A stretch of DNA of 64,000 nt from Burkholderiaceae bacterium (lineage in GTDB: Bacteria > Pseudomonadota > Gammaproteobacteria > Burkholderiales > Burkholderiaceae_C): positions 1-64,000 of the forward strand of contig JAIESX010000018.1 in assembly GCA_019745555.1 (NCBI GenBank). Reading direction: 5' to 3'. The notes under the pieces are model-generated. The model had not been told where the DNA came from, did no database searches, and saw only the letters and a list, made by a program, of their open reading frames with translations. How positions within the stretch are numbered: the first letter of the stretch is position 1; each line of letters starts with the position of its first letter. A program made the translations under genes and the position numbers. Below are positions 57,879 to 63,078 of this stretch, piece by piece.

Positions 57879-58982
57879 ATGGAACCCAAACTCAGTCCCG
57901 CCGTGATCCAGACCGCCCAGGCCCATGAAGGCCCGATCGAAACCGATGCCGTCATCATCGGCGCCGGCCCCGTCGGCCTGTTCCAGGTCTTCGAACTCGG
58001 CCTGCTCGAAATCAAGGCCCACGTCATCGACTCGCTGAGCTACCCCGGCGGCCAGCCCATCGAGCTCTATCCGGACAAGCCCATCTACGACATCCCGGCC
58101 ATCCCGGTGTGCACGGGCAAGGAGCTGACGGACGCCCTGCTCAAGCAGATCGAGCCCTTCGGTGCCACCTTCCATCTGGGCCAGACGGTCACCGTGGTGC
58201 AGAAGCAGGACGACGGCCGCTTCTATGTCGAGACCTCGAAGGGCACGCGCTTTCTGACCAAGACCATCTTCATCGCGGCAGGCGTGGGAGCTTTCGAGCC
58301 GCGCACCCTCAAGGTCGACGGCCTGGACAAGTTCGAGGGTTCGCAGCTCTTCTACCGCGTCAAGAACCCGGCCGACTTCGCCGGCAAGAACCTGCTCATC
58401 GTGGGTGGCGGCGATTCCGCCCTGGACTGGACGCTGAACTTCACGAATGAAGGCCCGAACAAGGCCGAGAGCGTGATCCTGGTACACCGCCGCGACGGCT
58501 TCAAGGCCGCCCCCGCCAGCGTGGCCAAGATGAAGGAACTCTGCGACGCCTATGAGATGCAGTTCATGGTGGGCCAGGTCACGGGCTACGAAGAGAAGGA
58601 CGGCAAGCTCACGGGCGCCAAGGTCACCGGCGGTGACGGCGTGACCCGCGTGGTGCCGCTGGACATGCTGCTGGTCTTCTTCGGCCTCTCGCCCAAGCTG
58701 GGACCCATCGCCGACTGGGGCCTGGACATCGAGCGCAAGCAGCTCGTGGTGGACACTGAAAAGTTCTCCACCAACGTGCCGGGCATCTTCGCCGTGGGCG
58801 ACATCAACACCTACCCGGGCAAGAAGAAGCTCATCCTCTCGGGCTTCCATGAGTGCGCGCTGGCCGCCTTTGCCGCCGCGCCCATCATCTTCCCCGAGAA
58901 GGGCAAGATCCACCTGCAGTACACCACCACCAGCCCCAAGCTGCACAAGGTCCTGGGCGTGGAGACACCGGTTTTCGACTGA
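57879..58982 (+). CDS. Ferredoxin/flavodoxin-NADP reductase, thioredoxin-reductase-like type
   Basis: A 367-residue FAD/NAD(P) oxidoreductase of the YumC/TrxB-like FNR class. FAD site [17 protein letters not shown], then [23 protein letters not shown](P) site [18 protein letters not shown] followed by VHRRDGFKA, whose RR suits NADPH. The last FAD contact is [30 protein letters not shown]. It lacks the CxxC of thioredoxin reductase. It is directly downstream of fdxA and probably forms the NADPH-to-ferredoxin step. It is closed by a strong terminator at 59011. Confidence 0.92.
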
Positions 58983-59010
58983 CCGGCGTCAAGAAACCCG
59001 AAAAGAGATC

Positions 59011-59034
59011 GGCCCGCCCTGTGCGGGCCTTTTT
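59011..59034 (+). terminator. Rho-independent terminator after the ferredoxin reductase gene
   Basis: GGCCCGC-CCTGT-GCGGGCC (59011-59029) followed by TTTTTC. It is a classic GC stem with a T-run, 28 bases after the stop, closing the fdxA-reductase unit and isolating it from the riboswitch that follows. Confidence 0.92.
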
Positions 59035-59057
59035 CCTGGTCGTAGAATCGGGCTTAC

Positions 59058-59145
59058 TTTGCTAGGGGTGTTGCCTCGCTGGCCGCGGTGACTGAGAAAG
59101 TCCCTTTGAACCTGATGGAGGTAATGCTCACGCAGGGAAGCAGGC
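59058..59145 (+). promoter_or_regulatory. TPP riboswitch (THI element)
   Basis: The plus strand carries the conserved TPP aptamer parts in order: GGGGTG (59065-59070), CTGAGA (59092-59097), CCCTTTGAACCTGAT (59102-59116), GGTAATGC (59120-59127) and CGCAGGGAAGC (59131-59141). TGCT/AGCA (59060-59063 with 59139-59142) closes the stem. It should lower expression of downstream thiamin genes when TPP is high. The first gene in its direction is thiO at 60083, more than 900 bases on; the thiD gene between them lies on the opposite strand. No obvious terminator hairpin with a T-run follows, so control may be at translation or by Rho. Confidence 0.93.
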
Positions 59146-59214
59146 CAAGACGCCCGTTACGCGGCCACGGCCCCTCCCCCACCGAGCTGGATCGAAATGA
59201 ATGGCGAGTCTGTG

Positions 59215-60045
59215 TCAGCCCAGCAGCTGCATGGCCACGGGCGCGTACCCGTGGTTCAGCGGGCCATGGCCGCGCCCCGTGTGCACCTCCGCGCCCGCGG
59301 CGATCGCTCCCAGGATGTAGGCGCGCGCCAGACGCACGGCGTCTTCCAGTCCATGGCCCAGCGCCAGCTGTGCCGCGATGGCCGAGGACAGGGTACAGCC
59401 CGTGCCATGCACGTTCTCGCTCGCGATGCGCGGCGAGGCCAGGCGCAGCGGCGCGCGTTCGCCCTGCAGCAGCAGATCCACCACCTCGTCGCCCTTCAGA
59501 TGCCCGCCCTTGAGCAGCACGCCCTGTGCGCCCAGCGCCTGCAGCTCGCGTGCCGCGCCCTCCAGCGCGGGAATGCCGGCTATGGTGTGGCCCAGCAGCA
59601 GCTCGGCCTCGTCCAGGTTGGGCGTGATCACCGTGGCCAGGGGGAAGAGCTCCTGCACCAGCACGCTCACCGTCTCCTCCGCGATCAGGCGGTCACCGCT
59701 CGTGGCCACCATCACGGGGTCCAGGACCACGTGCTTCAACTTGTATTTCCGGATCGCCTGTGCCACCACGCGCACGATCTCCGGTGCGTGCAGCATGCCG
59801 ATCTTGACGGCGTCGGTACCGATGTCCTCGAGCACGGCATCGAGCTGCGAAGCGAGGAACTCGGGCGGCACGCCGTGGATGCCGCGCACGCCCTGCGTGT
59901 TCTGCGCGGTGAGCGCCGTGATGGCCGTCATGCCGTAGCACCCGAGGGCACTGAAGGTCTTGAGGTCGGCCTGGATGCCGGCGCCGCCGCCGCTGTCGGA
60001 ACCCGCGATCGACAGCACGCGCGGGTAATGTTTTTGTGGGGTCAT
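59215..60045 (-). CDS. thiD: Hydroxymethylpyrimidine/phosphomethylpyrimidine kinase ThiD
   Basis: A 276-residue ribokinase-fold kinase that phosphorylates HMP twice to HMP-PP for thiamin. It has RVLSIAGSDSGGGAGIQADLKTF at the N-terminus (split: RVLSIAGSDSGGGAGIQADL and KTF), then VVLDPVMVATSGDRLI. The catalytic region is VHGTGCTLSSAIAAQLALG with the base Cys and the GTGC anion hole. Length is as in E. coli (266). The ATG at 60043-60045 is preceded by CAGGAG. It is divergent from thiO with 37 bases between starts and runs towards the riboswitch on the other strand. Confidence 0.94.
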   Translation of the reverse strand: MTPQKHYPRVLSIAGSDSGGGAGIQADLKTFSALGCYGMTAITALTAQNTQGVRGIHGVPPEFLASQLDAVLEDIGTDAVKIGMLHAPEIVRVVAQAIRKYKLKHVVLDPVMVATSGDRLIAEETVSVLVQELFPLATVITPNLDEAELLLGHTIAGIPALEGAARELQALGAQGVLLKGGHLKGDEVVDLLLQGERAPLRLASPRIASENVHGTGCTLSSAIAAQLALGHGLEDAVRLARAYILGAIAAGAEVHTGRGHGPLNHGYAPVAMQLLG

Positions 60046-60082
60046 GGATTTACTCCTGGCCCGGATTATCAGATCAATTGAG

Positions 60083-61183
60083 ATGAGCACAGTGAACCCA
60101 GGTCCTTCTTCCGTCGTGCTCGGCGCCGGCCTCATGGGCCGGCTGCTGGCCTGGCAGCTCGCGCGCGCGGGGCATCGAGTCACTGTATTCGAAGCCGGCA
60201 GCGCCGATGCCCAGACCTCGCCCGCGCGCGTCGCGGCCGCCATGCTGGCGCCGCTGGCCGAGTCCGCCATCACCGAGCCTAGCGTGGTCGGCATGGGACG
60301 TTACGCGCTCACGCGCTGGCCCGAGCTGATCGCGCAGCTCTCCCAACCGGTGTTCTTTCAGCAGGAGGGCACGCTCATCCTCTGGCACCGCCAGGACGCG
60401 GCCGAGGCCCAGCGTTTCGCCGGCCTGCTGCGCAATACCAACGAGCGGGTGCCCGGCCTGCCGAAGCTGCAACCCCTCGACGGCACGGGCGTGCGGACGC
60501 TCGAGCCCTCGCTCGAAAACCGTTTCGCCCAGGGGCTCTACCTGCCCGGCGAGGGGCAGCTCGACAACCGCCAGCTGCTGGCCGCGCTGCTGCACGAGCT
60601 GCAGGCGCTCAAGGTCGAACTGCACTGGAACAGCCCGCGTGCACCGCAGGACTTCCAGCCCGGTACCAGCGGCCAACCCGGCTGGGTCTTCGACTGCCGG
60701 GGTCTGGGCGCACAGGCGCAATGGGGCGAGCTGCGCGGCGTGCGCGGCGAAGTGGCGCGCATCCACGCGCCCGACGTCTCGCTGAGCCGGCCCACACGCC
60801 TGATCCATCCGCGCTACCCGATCTACATCGCGCCCAAGCAGGACCATCTCTTTGTGATCGGCGCCACCGAGATCGAGAGCAACGACCTCTCACCGCCCAG
60901 CGTGCGCTCCACGCTGGAACTGCTGAGCGCCGCCTACGCCGTGCATCCGGGCTTCGGCGAAGGTCGCATCCTGGAGATCGCCACGCAGTGCCGCCCCACC
61001 CTGCCCGACAACCTGCCCGCGATCCGTCGGCTCGGGCCCCGTACCCTGCAGATCAACGGCCTGTACCGGCACGGCTTCATGATCTCGCCGGCCCTGCTCG
61101 ACGTGGTGCTGGAGCTGGTGCAGGAGCAGCGCACCACGCTGGCCGGCGCGCTGGATCTGCAAGTGGAAGAAAACGCCGCATGA
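60083..61183 (+). CDS. thiO: Glycine oxidase ThiO
   Basis: A 366-residue FAD amine oxidase that makes iminoglycine for the thiazole ring. SSVVLGAGLMGRLLAWQLAR provides the FAD GxGxxG motif. RVAAAMLAPLAE and the C-terminal RPTLPDNLPAIRRLGPR and GLYRHGFMISPALL are shared with ThiO/DadA-like oxidases. The ATG at 60083 is chosen (MSTVNPGPSS). It overlaps thiS by 4 bases (ATGA). Use of ThiO, not ThiH, means an oxygen-dependent route to the thiazole. Confidence 0.92.
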   Translation: MSTVNPGPSSVVLGAGLMGRLLAWQLARAGHRVTVFEAGSADAQTSPARVAAAMLAPLAESAITEPSVVGMGRYALTRWPELIAQLSQPVFFQQEGTLILWHRQDAAEAQRFAGLLRNTNERVPGLPKLQPLDGTGVRTLEPSLENRFAQGLYLPGEGQLDNRQLLAALLHELQALKVELHWNSPRAPQDFQPGTSGQPGWVFDCRGLGAQAQWGELRGVRGEVARIHAPDVSLSRPTRLIHPRYPIYIAPKQDHLFVIGATEIESNDLSPPSVRSTLELLSAAYAVHPGFGEGRILEIATQCRPTLPDNLPAIRRLGPRTLQINGLYRHGFMISPALLDVVLELVQEQRTTLAGALDLQVEENAA

Positions 61184-61377
61184 AAGTCATCATCAACCAG
61201 CACGAGCACGAGCTCGCGGCCGGCGCCACCGTGGCGGACGCCGTGGCGGCCATCGGGGCCAAGCCGCCTTTTGCCGCCGCCGTGAACACACAGTTCGTTC
61301 CCAAGACACAGTACGCCCAGCATGCACTGAACGAAGGCGACCGCATTGAAATCATCTCCCCCGTCACCGGCGGATAA
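61180..61377 (+). CDS. thiS: Sulfur carrier protein ThiS
   Basis: A 65-residue ubiquitin-like sulfur carrier. MKVIINQHEHELAAGATVAD is the normal start. The C-terminus is EIISPVTGG, ending in the Gly-Gly that is adenylated by ThiF and then thiocarboxylated. It overlaps the end of thiO and stands 4 bases before thiG. No thiF gene is in the window; MoeB or another E1-like protein may serve. Confidence 0.94.
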   Translation: MKVIINQHEHELAAGATVADAVAAIGAKPPFAAAVNTQFVPKTQYAQHALNEGDRIEIISPVTGG

Positions 61378-61381
61378 AGCC

Positions 61382-62179
61382 ATGCCCACGAAACCCGACC
61401 CACTCATCCTCTACGGCGAGACCTTTCAGAGCCGCTTGCTGCTCGGCACATCGCGTTACCCCTCACCCGCCGTGCTCGAAGCCGCCGTGCAACGCTCCCA
61501 ACCCGCGATGCTCACCGCCTCGCTGCGCCGCCAGGGGGCCGTGCCGCACGAAAGCGGTAACGCCTTCTGGGCGCTGCTCAAGAAGCTGAACGTCCCCGTG
61601 CTGCCCAACACGGCCGGCTGCCACAGCATGCAGGAGGTCCTCACCACGGCGCAGATGGCGCGCGAGGTCTTCGAGACCCCCTGGATCAAGCTCGAGCTGA
61701 TCGGTGACGACTACACCCTGCAGCCCGACACGCTCAACCTCGTCGAGACCGCCGATCGTCTGATCAAGGATGGCTTCAAGGTCCTGCCCTATTGCACCGA
61801 AGACCTCGTGCTCTGCCAGCGCCTCGTGGACGTGGGCTGCCAGGCCGTGATGCCCTGGGCCGCGCCCATCGGCACGGGCAAGGGCCCGATCAATCCCTAC
61901 GCCATGCGCATGCTGCGCGAGCGCCTGAATGTGCCGCTGATCGTCGATGCGGGCCTGGGCCGCCCATCGCACGCGTGCACGGTGATGGAGTGGGGCTTCG
62001 ACGCCGTGCTGCTCAACACCGCCGTGGCACTGGCGCAGGATCCGGTGGCCATGGCCGGCGCCTTCGCCGACGCCACGCAGGCCGGCCGAGCCGCCTGGCT
62101 ATCGGGTGCCATGACCGAGCAGGACGCCGCCCAGCCTTCGACACCCGTCCTGGGCACACCTTTCTGGCACCACGCTTGA
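61382..62179 (+). CDS. thiG: Thiazole synthase ThiG
   Basis: A 265-residue TIM-barrel enzyme joining deoxyxylulose phosphate, iminoglycine and ThiS-thiocarboxylate to form the thiazole. LLLGTSRYPSPAVLEAAVQR is near the start, then VPVLPNTAGCHSMQEVLTTA. The Schiff-base Lys is in ETPWIKLELIGDDYTLQPD. The phosphate loop region includes MPWAAPIGTGKGPINPYAM and VPLIVDAGLGRPSHA. ATG 61382 follows thiS by 4 bases. It is fully consistent with a ThiO-ThiS-ThiG route. Confidence 0.95.
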   Translation: MPTKPDPLILYGETFQSRLLLGTSRYPSPAVLEAAVQRSQPAMLTASLRRQGAVPHESGNAFWALLKKLNVPVLPNTAGCHSMQEVLTTAQMAREVFETPWIKLELIGDDYTLQPDTLNLVETADRLIKDGFKVLPYCTEDLVLCQRLVDVGCQAVMPWAAPIGTGKGPINPYAMRMLRERLNVPLIVDAGLGRPSHACTVMEWGFDAVLLNTAVALAQDPVAMAGAFADATQAGRAAWLSGAMTEQDAAQPSTPVLGTPFWHHA

Positions 62180-62187
62180 GCCATTCC

Positions 62188-63078
62188 ATGTTCGAACTCA
62201 ACACCGACGCCCGCGCCATCGTTGCGGCCCATGCCGACAAGGCGATTCCTGTCTCGGGAACCCCAGCGCTGAACTACAGCCGCGACGACGCCGGCTACCG
62301 CAGCGCCAAGCAGGCCTGTCTGGCCCTGGGTTTCATCGAGATCGATGCCGAGTGCGTGGCATTGGCCTGGCTGGCCCAGGCCAACCGCACACGTCAGTTC
62401 GACCCGCAGGCCTGGCCTGCGGAGCCGGCCGACTTCGGCCTGCGCCCCTGGCCGCGCCAGGATGCCTTCCCAGCCTGTCCCAAGCACCTTGGCGTCTACG
62501 CCGTGCTGCCCACGGCCGAGTGGGTCGGCCGCATGGCGCGCGCTGGGGTGCCTACGCTGCAGCTGCGCTACAAGTCCGAGGATGCCGCCGCTGTGCAGCG
62601 CGAAGTGCAGGCCGCGGTAAACGCCGTGCGCGGCACGAACGCCCTGCTCTTCATCAACGACCACTGGCGCGAGGCCATTGCCGCCGGTGCCTACGGCGTG
62701 CACCTGGGCCAGGAAGACATGGAGATCGCCGACTTCGCGGCCATCCGCGCCGCCGGCCTGCGCCTGGGCCTGTCCAGCCACGGCTATGCCGAGATGGTGC
62801 GCGCCGATCGCCTGAGTCCGAGCTACATCGCCATGGGTGCGGTCTACCCCACCACGCTCAAGCGCATGGCCACGGCGCCGCAGGGCCCGGGACGCCTGGC
62901 CGCCTACGCGCGGCTGATGCGCGACTATCCGGGCGTGGGCATCGGCGGGATCTCGGCGGCCGAACTGCCGGAGATCAAGGCCACAGGCGTCGGCTCGCTG
63001 GCGGTCGTGCGCGCCATCACGGCGCAGAACAACCCGGAGCAGGCCGCGCAGGATCTGATGGCTGCCTGGGCCGCTTGA
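62188..63078 (+). CDS. thiE: Thiamine-phosphate synthase with N-terminal extension
   Basis: A 296-residue protein whose residues about 98-290 match ThiE: LGVYAVLPTAEWVGRMARAGVPTLQLRYKS, NALLFINDHWREAIAAGAYGVHLGQEDM, LGLSSHGYAEMVRA, MGAVYPTTLKR and VGIGGISAAELPEI. Normal ThiE is about 210 residues. The first 95 or so (RDDAGYRSAKQACLALGFIE, WLAQANRTRQFDPQAWPAEP) do not match a domain I know. The enzyme couples HMP-PP and thiazole phosphate to thiamin phosphate. ATG 62188 lies 8 bases after thiG. It is the last gene of thiOSGE. Confidence 0.9.
   Translation: MFELNTDARAIVAAHADKAIPVSGTPALNYSRDDAGYRSAKQACLALGFIEIDAECVALAWLAQANRTRQFDPQAWPAEPADFGLRPWPRQDAFPACPKHLGVYAVLPTAEWVGRMARAGVPTLQLRYKSEDAAAVQREVQAAVNAVRGTNALLFINDHWREAIAAGAYGVHLGQEDMEIADFAAIRAAGLRLGLSSHGYAEMVRADRLSPSYIAMGAVYPTTLKRMATAPQGPGRLAAYARLMRDYPGVGIGGISAAELPEIKATGVGSLAVVRAITAQNNPEQAAQDLMAAWAA

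Follow-up and report, generated by a model that had tools for sequence, protein, structure and literature searches.

Known systems and the thi locus of the window

Antisense transcription is usually taken as noise or as a source of silencing RNA, and antisense open reading frames are taken as accidents of GC-rich DNA. Here we describe a thi locus from a 64,000-nucleotide stretch of a Burkholderiaceae bacterium genome (assembly GCA_019745555.1, contig JAIESX010000018.1, positions 1 to 64,000), called the window in the following. The locus consists of a thiamine pyrophosphate (TPP) riboswitch aptamer, a thiD gene in reverse orientation, and the genes thiO, thiS, thiG and thiE (thiOSGE) in the orientation of the riboswitch. 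An open reading frame, here called the relay frame, runs antisense to the whole of thiD and ends directly in front of thiO. We consider it probable (roughly 0.7), from comparisons among related genomes, that riboswitch, antisense frame and thiOSGE form one TPP-controlled noncontiguous operon in which the antisense stretch would be translated and would hand ribosomes to thiO.

A noncontiguous operon has been described for the menaquinone genes of Staphylococcus aureus (Saenz-Lahoya et al., 2019, as summarized in the review PMC7154746). There, as at the locus studied here, genes of one pathway lie in one orientation with an opposite-strand gene between them, and one transcript, which in our case is deduced, runs antisense to that gene. 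The two cases differ in that the review's summary, for S. aureus, speaks of antisense RNA and reciprocal transcripts and mentions no antisense frame that is selected and coupled to the gene behind it, and in that only the present locus has a riboswitch at its head. An aptamer followed by reversed thiD and thiO, with or without cytX after the aptamer and with no aptamer found between thiD and thiO, occurs in 40 of 161 loci with reversed thiD, the window included. The layout is thus that of a noncontiguous operon, in which a gene of the opposite strand breaks up a row of operon genes that share one orientation.

Riboswitches that head a transcript antisense to a gene are described, in the summary given by PMC7154746, for aspocR of Listeria and ubiG of Clostridium acetobutylicum. 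In those systems antisense transcription itself is the output, whereas here it appears to be the passage to thiOSGE. In Neisseria meningitidis, a TPP riboswitch precedes a cytX-thiO-thiE operon and caused thiamine-dependent repression of an E. coli reporter, for which a translational, possibly Rho-linked, mechanism was proposed (PMC7237195). Aptamer class, pathway and the association of cytX with thiO are shared with the present locus; however, thiD of Neisseria is a separate gene at another place, whereas in the window it lies reversed inside the unit and cytX is absent. Frames embedded antisense to a gene are also known from antisense overlapping genes such as laoB and pop, the latter antisense to ompA. 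Those frames are presented as protein-coding, whereas at the present locus the evidence points to translation itself and to the place where it ends. In the sources covered, noncontiguous operons and riboswitch-controlled antisense RNAs are already known, and what is apparently new is a selected reading frame through the antisense stretch. A literature search, by which subscription papers were mostly not covered, turned up no description of this thi locus or of an antisense frame under selection that bridges a reversed gene.

Stop codons and end points of the antisense frame

Loci were classed by the position of their aptamers, TPP1 being an aptamer ahead of a reversed thiD and TPP2 an aptamer directly before thiO. 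A first set of 121 stretches yielded 88 loci with a near-full, non-identical thiD; the other 33 were dropped because the same genome occurred in two collections or because no near-full thiD was present, and three loci with thiD on the thiO strand were left out of the group tests, which gives 85. A second set of 100 stretches was fetched after the pattern had been seen, and 76 of these were used (in 14 no near-full thiD was present, and in 10 the thiD had been counted before). As the second set stems largely from the same or near genera, it provides new sequences and not new lineages throughout. The combined 161 loci with reversed thiD comprise 20 with TPP1 only, 20 with TPP1 and cytX, 36 in which no TPP aptamer was found and 85 with TPP2. 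One of the 36 (L153) was placed there despite a weak aptamer match of 23.8 bits upstream of its thiD, and some others with long gaps may hold aptamers missed by R1, the covariance model built here.

Changes to the thiD codons TTA, CTA and TCA, which are stops in the codon-aligned antisense frame, were counted on a thiO+thiG tree, and expected counts were derived from the rate per leucine or serine codon in the neighbouring thiO, thiG, fpr and cytX genes of the same genomes. Across all loci without TPP2 (n = 76), 11 such changes were seen where 70.0 were expected. None occurred at the 20 TPP1-only loci (21.1 expected), which is the purifying selection against stops that marks an antisense overlapping gene, and none at the 20 TPP1-cytX loci (9.7 expected), while loci with no TPP found had 11 versus 45.8. 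In contrast, 50 changes were seen versus 54.7 expected at the TPP2 loci, i.e., there was no depletion. The codons CTT, TCT and TTG of thiD, which served as controls, were not depleted in any of the four groups. Within the first set, the 18 loci with the window's layout showed 0 changes versus 19.9 expected (approximate Poisson probability 2e-9), the eight TPP1-cytX loci 0 versus 2.6 (P 0.07) and the 47 TPP2 loci 33 versus 32.9; control codons in thiD of the 18 loci were at the level of thiO (112.6 versus 120.7 per 1000). The P value of one first-set subset ("relay-positive"), which had been picked on the outcome, was not used. The second set repeated the pattern, with 4 changes versus 30.1 expected in 38 loci without TPP2 and 18 versus 21.6 in 38 loci with it. 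Stops in the other two plus-strand frames were similar between groups (means of 4.4-6.3 and 7.8-9.0 per locus).

On this comparative evidence, the antisense frame is under selection for openness where TPP2 is absent. Since stops are depleted without TPP2 and not with it, the frame appears to be kept open when no riboswitch directly precedes thiO and to be free to gather stops otherwise. An antisense frame found open in one genome counts for little as evidence, because 48 of the 85 TPP2 loci are also without stops in the thiD-register antisense phase, and only the comparison across genomes carries the claim. A first-pass annotation, made from the window's sequence by itself, had judged the frame probably accidental. 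The stop depletion rules this out, which a single genome could not have shown.

The end of the frame is also related to the class of the locus. In the window, its TGA (60079-60081) is separated by one base from the thiO ATG at 60083. When the nearest in-frame ATG was taken in every group of the combined set, the frame stop was found between -4 and +1 nt from the thiO ATG in 19 of 20 TPP1 loci, which is the stop-start juxtaposition of translational coupling, in 12 of 20 TPP1-cytX loci, in 15 of 36 loci with no TPP and in 6 of 85 TPP2 loci. For a range of -10 to +8, the respective counts are 19/20, 17/20, 20/36 and 6/85. In the 18 first-set loci with the window's layout, the frame meets its first stop, measured from the nominal ATG, at -4 (TGA-N-ATG, 8 loci), -3 (TGAATG, 3 loci) or +1 (ATGA, 7 loci), and the thiD-thiO gaps of these loci range from 26 to 202 nt and fall in all three classes modulo 3. 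Shuffling of gaps, with ancestry not removed, gives an average chance per locus of 0.146, and 5 of the 47 first-set TPP2 loci end there. Some loci in which no aptamer was found (e.g., L281, L285, L290, L292 and L293) have an open frame with its stop 5 nt past the thiO ATG.

Of the first 18 loci, 16 have an ATG at the front of the frame that precedes the thiD stop by 18 nt (by 21 nt in L098), the exceptions being L102, with GTG, and L103, with an ATG nearer to thiD. In 18 of the 20 TPP1-cytX loci, a start codon of the frame is no more than 5 nt away from the cytX stop, and a start within 8 nt of it was seen in 0 of 27 TPP2 loci with a nearby cytX. Other overlaps of cytX with the frame are found in L280, L283 and L310.

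A frame of this length (about 290-350 codons from the conserved start) that is kept open and has a conserved front ATG might encode a functional protein, as an overprinted gene whose position before thiO would be secondary. Divergence at fourfold sites points in the same direction, as the value for thiD, set against that for thiO, is slightly smaller in the window's layout (0.320/0.357; 93 moderately distant pairs) than at TPP2 loci (0.381/0.351; 777 pairs, thiG 0.358). However, this drop in rate is small, since the fourfold divergence of thiD is about that of thiG (0.333) and above that of fpr (0.248) in the same genomes, and the relay product has no Pfam match up to an E value of 0.01. Furthermore, three loci (L092, L098 and L099, of G145, G209 and G206) have a thiD-thiO gap about 120-150 nt longer than their close relatives and the frame still runs to thiO, which argues that openness and ending are kept and not the sequence. 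Translation as such, and its end point, therefore probably fit better than a selected product, and we consider an overprinted gene unlikely. The long gaps of these three loci contain repeat-like DNA with a shared GCCGGTTCCACGGCGTTCC stretch.

Features, gene order and history of the locus

The first-pass annotation had described a full TPP aptamer on the plus strand, thiD on the minus strand and then thiO-thiS-thiG-thiE on the plus strand, and the match to RF00059, the Pfam matches and the coordinates confirm this arrangement (Table 1). The aptamer scores above the RF00059 gathering threshold (61.4 versus 54.3 bits) and is complete over model positions 1-105.

Table 1. Coordinates of the features of the thi locus in the window.
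Feature	Positions	Strand	Remarks
fpr-like gene (ferredoxin-NADP-reductase-like)	57879-58982		name by inspection; ends upstream of the aptamer
Intrinsic terminator-like hairpin and T tract	59011-59034	+	stem 59011-59029, then TTTTT
TAGAAT	59043-59048	+	likely -10 of the riboswitch transcript; conservation by eye
TPP riboswitch aptamer	59054-59155	+	RF00059, 61.4 bits, E 1.6e-10
C-rich spacer with CCCCTCCCCC	59156-59196	+	between aptamer and relay frame; from the sequence
Relay frame	59197-60081	+	294 codons; antisense to thiD over its full length and in its codon register
thiD, hydroxymethylpyrimidine/phosphomethylpyrimidine kinase	59215-60045	-	PF08543, 2.6e-95
GATAAT	60065-60070	-	likely -10 of thiD's own promoter; similar motif by eye in relatives' thiD-thiO gaps
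thiO, glycine oxidase-like FAD enzyme	60083-61183	+	PF01266; first gene past the stretch antisense to thiD
thiS	61180-61377	+	PF02597
thiG	61382-62179	+	name and start by inspection
thiE	62188-63078	+	name by inspection

Reversed thiD is the norm, being present in 161 of 164 loci counted. Among 26 genomes of the window's genus that were searched, 25 had a thiO match, and 17 of these 25 showed the order TPP, reversed thiD, thiO. In 16 of the 17, fpr precedes the aptamer, the exception being G219, in whose stretch it was not found. The same layout was seen in one genome of another genus (G048), which together with the 17 genomes indicates that it is more than chance, and in the second-set loci L323 (G368) and L318 (G065). 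Five genomes of the genus (G203, G204, G207, G208 and G222) had no aptamer match at the thi locus, G203 having thiO matches on two contigs. In G200-G202, of the same genus, TPP, cytX, thiD and thiO all lie on one strand. The thiO of G201 and of G202 (L191:4554-5744 and L192) carries an extra repeat-like stretch in the middle of the protein (STHAALRGDG...) that is absent from the window's thiO.

These genomes also bear on a reading of the locus as an excludon, in which the riboswitch transcript would act mainly as antisense RNA and TPP would control thiOSGE and thiD in opposite senses. The full overlap of thiD by antisense agrees with it, and riboswitch-controlled antisense RNAs such as those of aspocR and ubiG give it precedent in the account of PMC7154746. 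However, an excludon leaves the openness of the frame and its end at thiO unexplained, both genes serve one pathway and both products are needed for TPP synthesis, and G200-G202 have thiD in the same operon and orientation. We therefore regard this reading as improbable.

A survey of gene order covered 95 stretches, some genomes being included twice (e.g., L195 and L103), and was made with model R1. The fullest common order was TPP1-cytX-reversed thiD-TPP2-thiO, found in 24 of the 95 stretches (3 of which include fpr, while 21 do not). The same order without TPP2 was found in 8, and fpr-TPP-reversed thiD-thiO in 16. The locus of the window is without cytX and without TPP2, and because both are gone its aptamer most probably is TPP1, the riboswitch that once preceded cytX. 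As judged from gene order and not from ancestral reconstruction, the simplest history would be that a locus of the fullest order lost TPP2 and cytX, so that TPP1 was left alone before the reversed thiD. On the thiO+thiG tree, the presence of TPP2 changed, by gain or loss, at least 10 times. The alternative offered by the first-pass annotation, a riboswitch orphaned by an inversion, did not survive the comparison of gene order, as reversed thiD is usual and the missing parts are cytX and the second TPP riboswitch. A vestigial thiC leader was likewise rejected because thiC (PF01964), on another contig, is preceded by a TPP match of its own (L003, 46 bits).

The match before thiC is one of two other TPP matches of the genome, both below the gathering score. 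The second (L002:1501-1622, contig C55:56167-56288; 53.8 bits) precedes a LuxE-family acyl-protein synthetase gene (1653-2786, PF04443), for which we know of no link to thiamine, and matches with similar scores also occur at other places in the genomes of G215 and G216. Close pairs of TPP aptamers were seen back to back (G008:C400:731-995 and G150:C1:71679-71996) and in tandem, about 1.4 kb apart (G207:C36:1328-2931).

A proposed relay from the riboswitch to thiO

The terminator-like hairpin sits between the fpr-like gene and the riboswitch unit, and a GC hairpin with a T tract was recognized by eye in many, but not all, of 18 inspected upstream stretches. Also by eye, all 18 inspected loci with the window's layout were found to have TA[ACG]AAT in a similar position upstream of the aptamer. 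The conservation of the aptamer across the genus, this -10-like element and the short distance of 37 bp between the start codons of thiD and thiO support the earlier proposal that the riboswitch drives a leader which would run antisense to thiD and reach thiO. The gene thiD seems to have its own promoter (GATAAT) and a short leader. Between the aptamer and the relay frame, the terminator scan listed no intrinsic terminator-like site, and the C-rich spacer is a possible expression platform or Rho loading site. Downstream, the thiO TGA overlaps the thiS ATG. The Shine-Dalgarno sequence of thiO was uninformative as a discriminator (mean longest match of 1.9 in the window's layout versus 2.7 in TPP2 loci).

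A scheme that we infer from these comparisons for transcription through thiD, translation, re-initiation, Rho and the response to TPP would be as follows. At low TPP, RNA polymerase would start at about 59055, from a promoter around 59043, and pass the aptamer, and ribosomes would enter the relay frame at 59197. By translating the strand opposite thiD they would keep Rho off the otherwise bare antisense RNA, and they would stop one base before thiO and re-initiate there. At high TPP, entry into the relay frame would be blocked, the untranslated C-rich RNA would be open to Rho termination and expression of thiOSGE would fall. Meanwhile, thiD would be transcribed from its own promoter.

Several observations weigh against this proposal. 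Folding of 59050-59230 to its minimum-energy structure gave no better result than folding of shuffled sequences (z 0.93), and the relay ATG at 59197 has, by eye, no clear Shine-Dalgarno sequence; by contrast, the inspected cytX starts mostly have a GGAG-like one. Among the 36 loci without a detected TPP aptamer, 7 have stops in the frame and 16 end outside -10 to +8 of thiO, and one of the 20 TPP1 loci (L318) ends 22 nt short of thiO. The spacing -5 is shared by 15 of the 18 overlaps with cytX. In the eight overlaps that were read letter by letter this spacing comes from conserved C-terminal thiD codons, with the others mostly at the same place, and the overlaps are therefore not independent events. 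The Poisson values are approximate because rates in adjacent genes of the same genomes supplied the expected numbers. A test with independent pairs found 7 pairs on well-supported branches, which are too few, and was not significant (median p 0.5); on average, an open frame went with loss of TPP2 in 2.4 pairs and the opposite was the case in 0.3. Finally, an AT-rich ATTATC element within the 37-bp gap between thiD and thiO is a possible divergent thiO promoter.

If thiO had such a promoter of its own, the riboswitch would be an orphan left by the loss of cytX. A consensus promoter scan of 58900-60300 listed no promoter anywhere, which favours neither side. An orphan would be expected to decay, yet the aptamer and the -10-like element are kept in 18 of 18 loci, with thiO proteins down to 71% identical to that of the window. 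Under neutral decay, stops should also have arisen in the antisense frame, whereas none of the 21.1 changes expected at the 20 TPP1 loci was seen. We thus give this explanation little credence and favour a riboswitch-controlled noncontiguous operon with a translated antisense stretch.

In Comamonadaceae, the relay frame goes with the lack of a riboswitch belonging to thiO itself. Related genomes differ in whether they have the second riboswitch and thereby provide a natural control for the antisense frame, which is kept open where the gene downstream seems to rely on it and not where a separate riboswitch serves that gene. We lean, if only slightly, towards regarding the antisense relay frame as a class of regulatory element, in which the opposite strand would be kept readable in codon register so that ribosomes could cross an opposite-facing gene into the next gene of the operon and carry riboswitch control over some 900 nt. 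This would explain how an operon tolerates a wrong-facing gene, and the combination of antisense stop depletion with a stop-start overlap gives a genome test for other noncontiguous operons. If the proposal is true, relay frames may exist wherever an operon contains a reversed gene.

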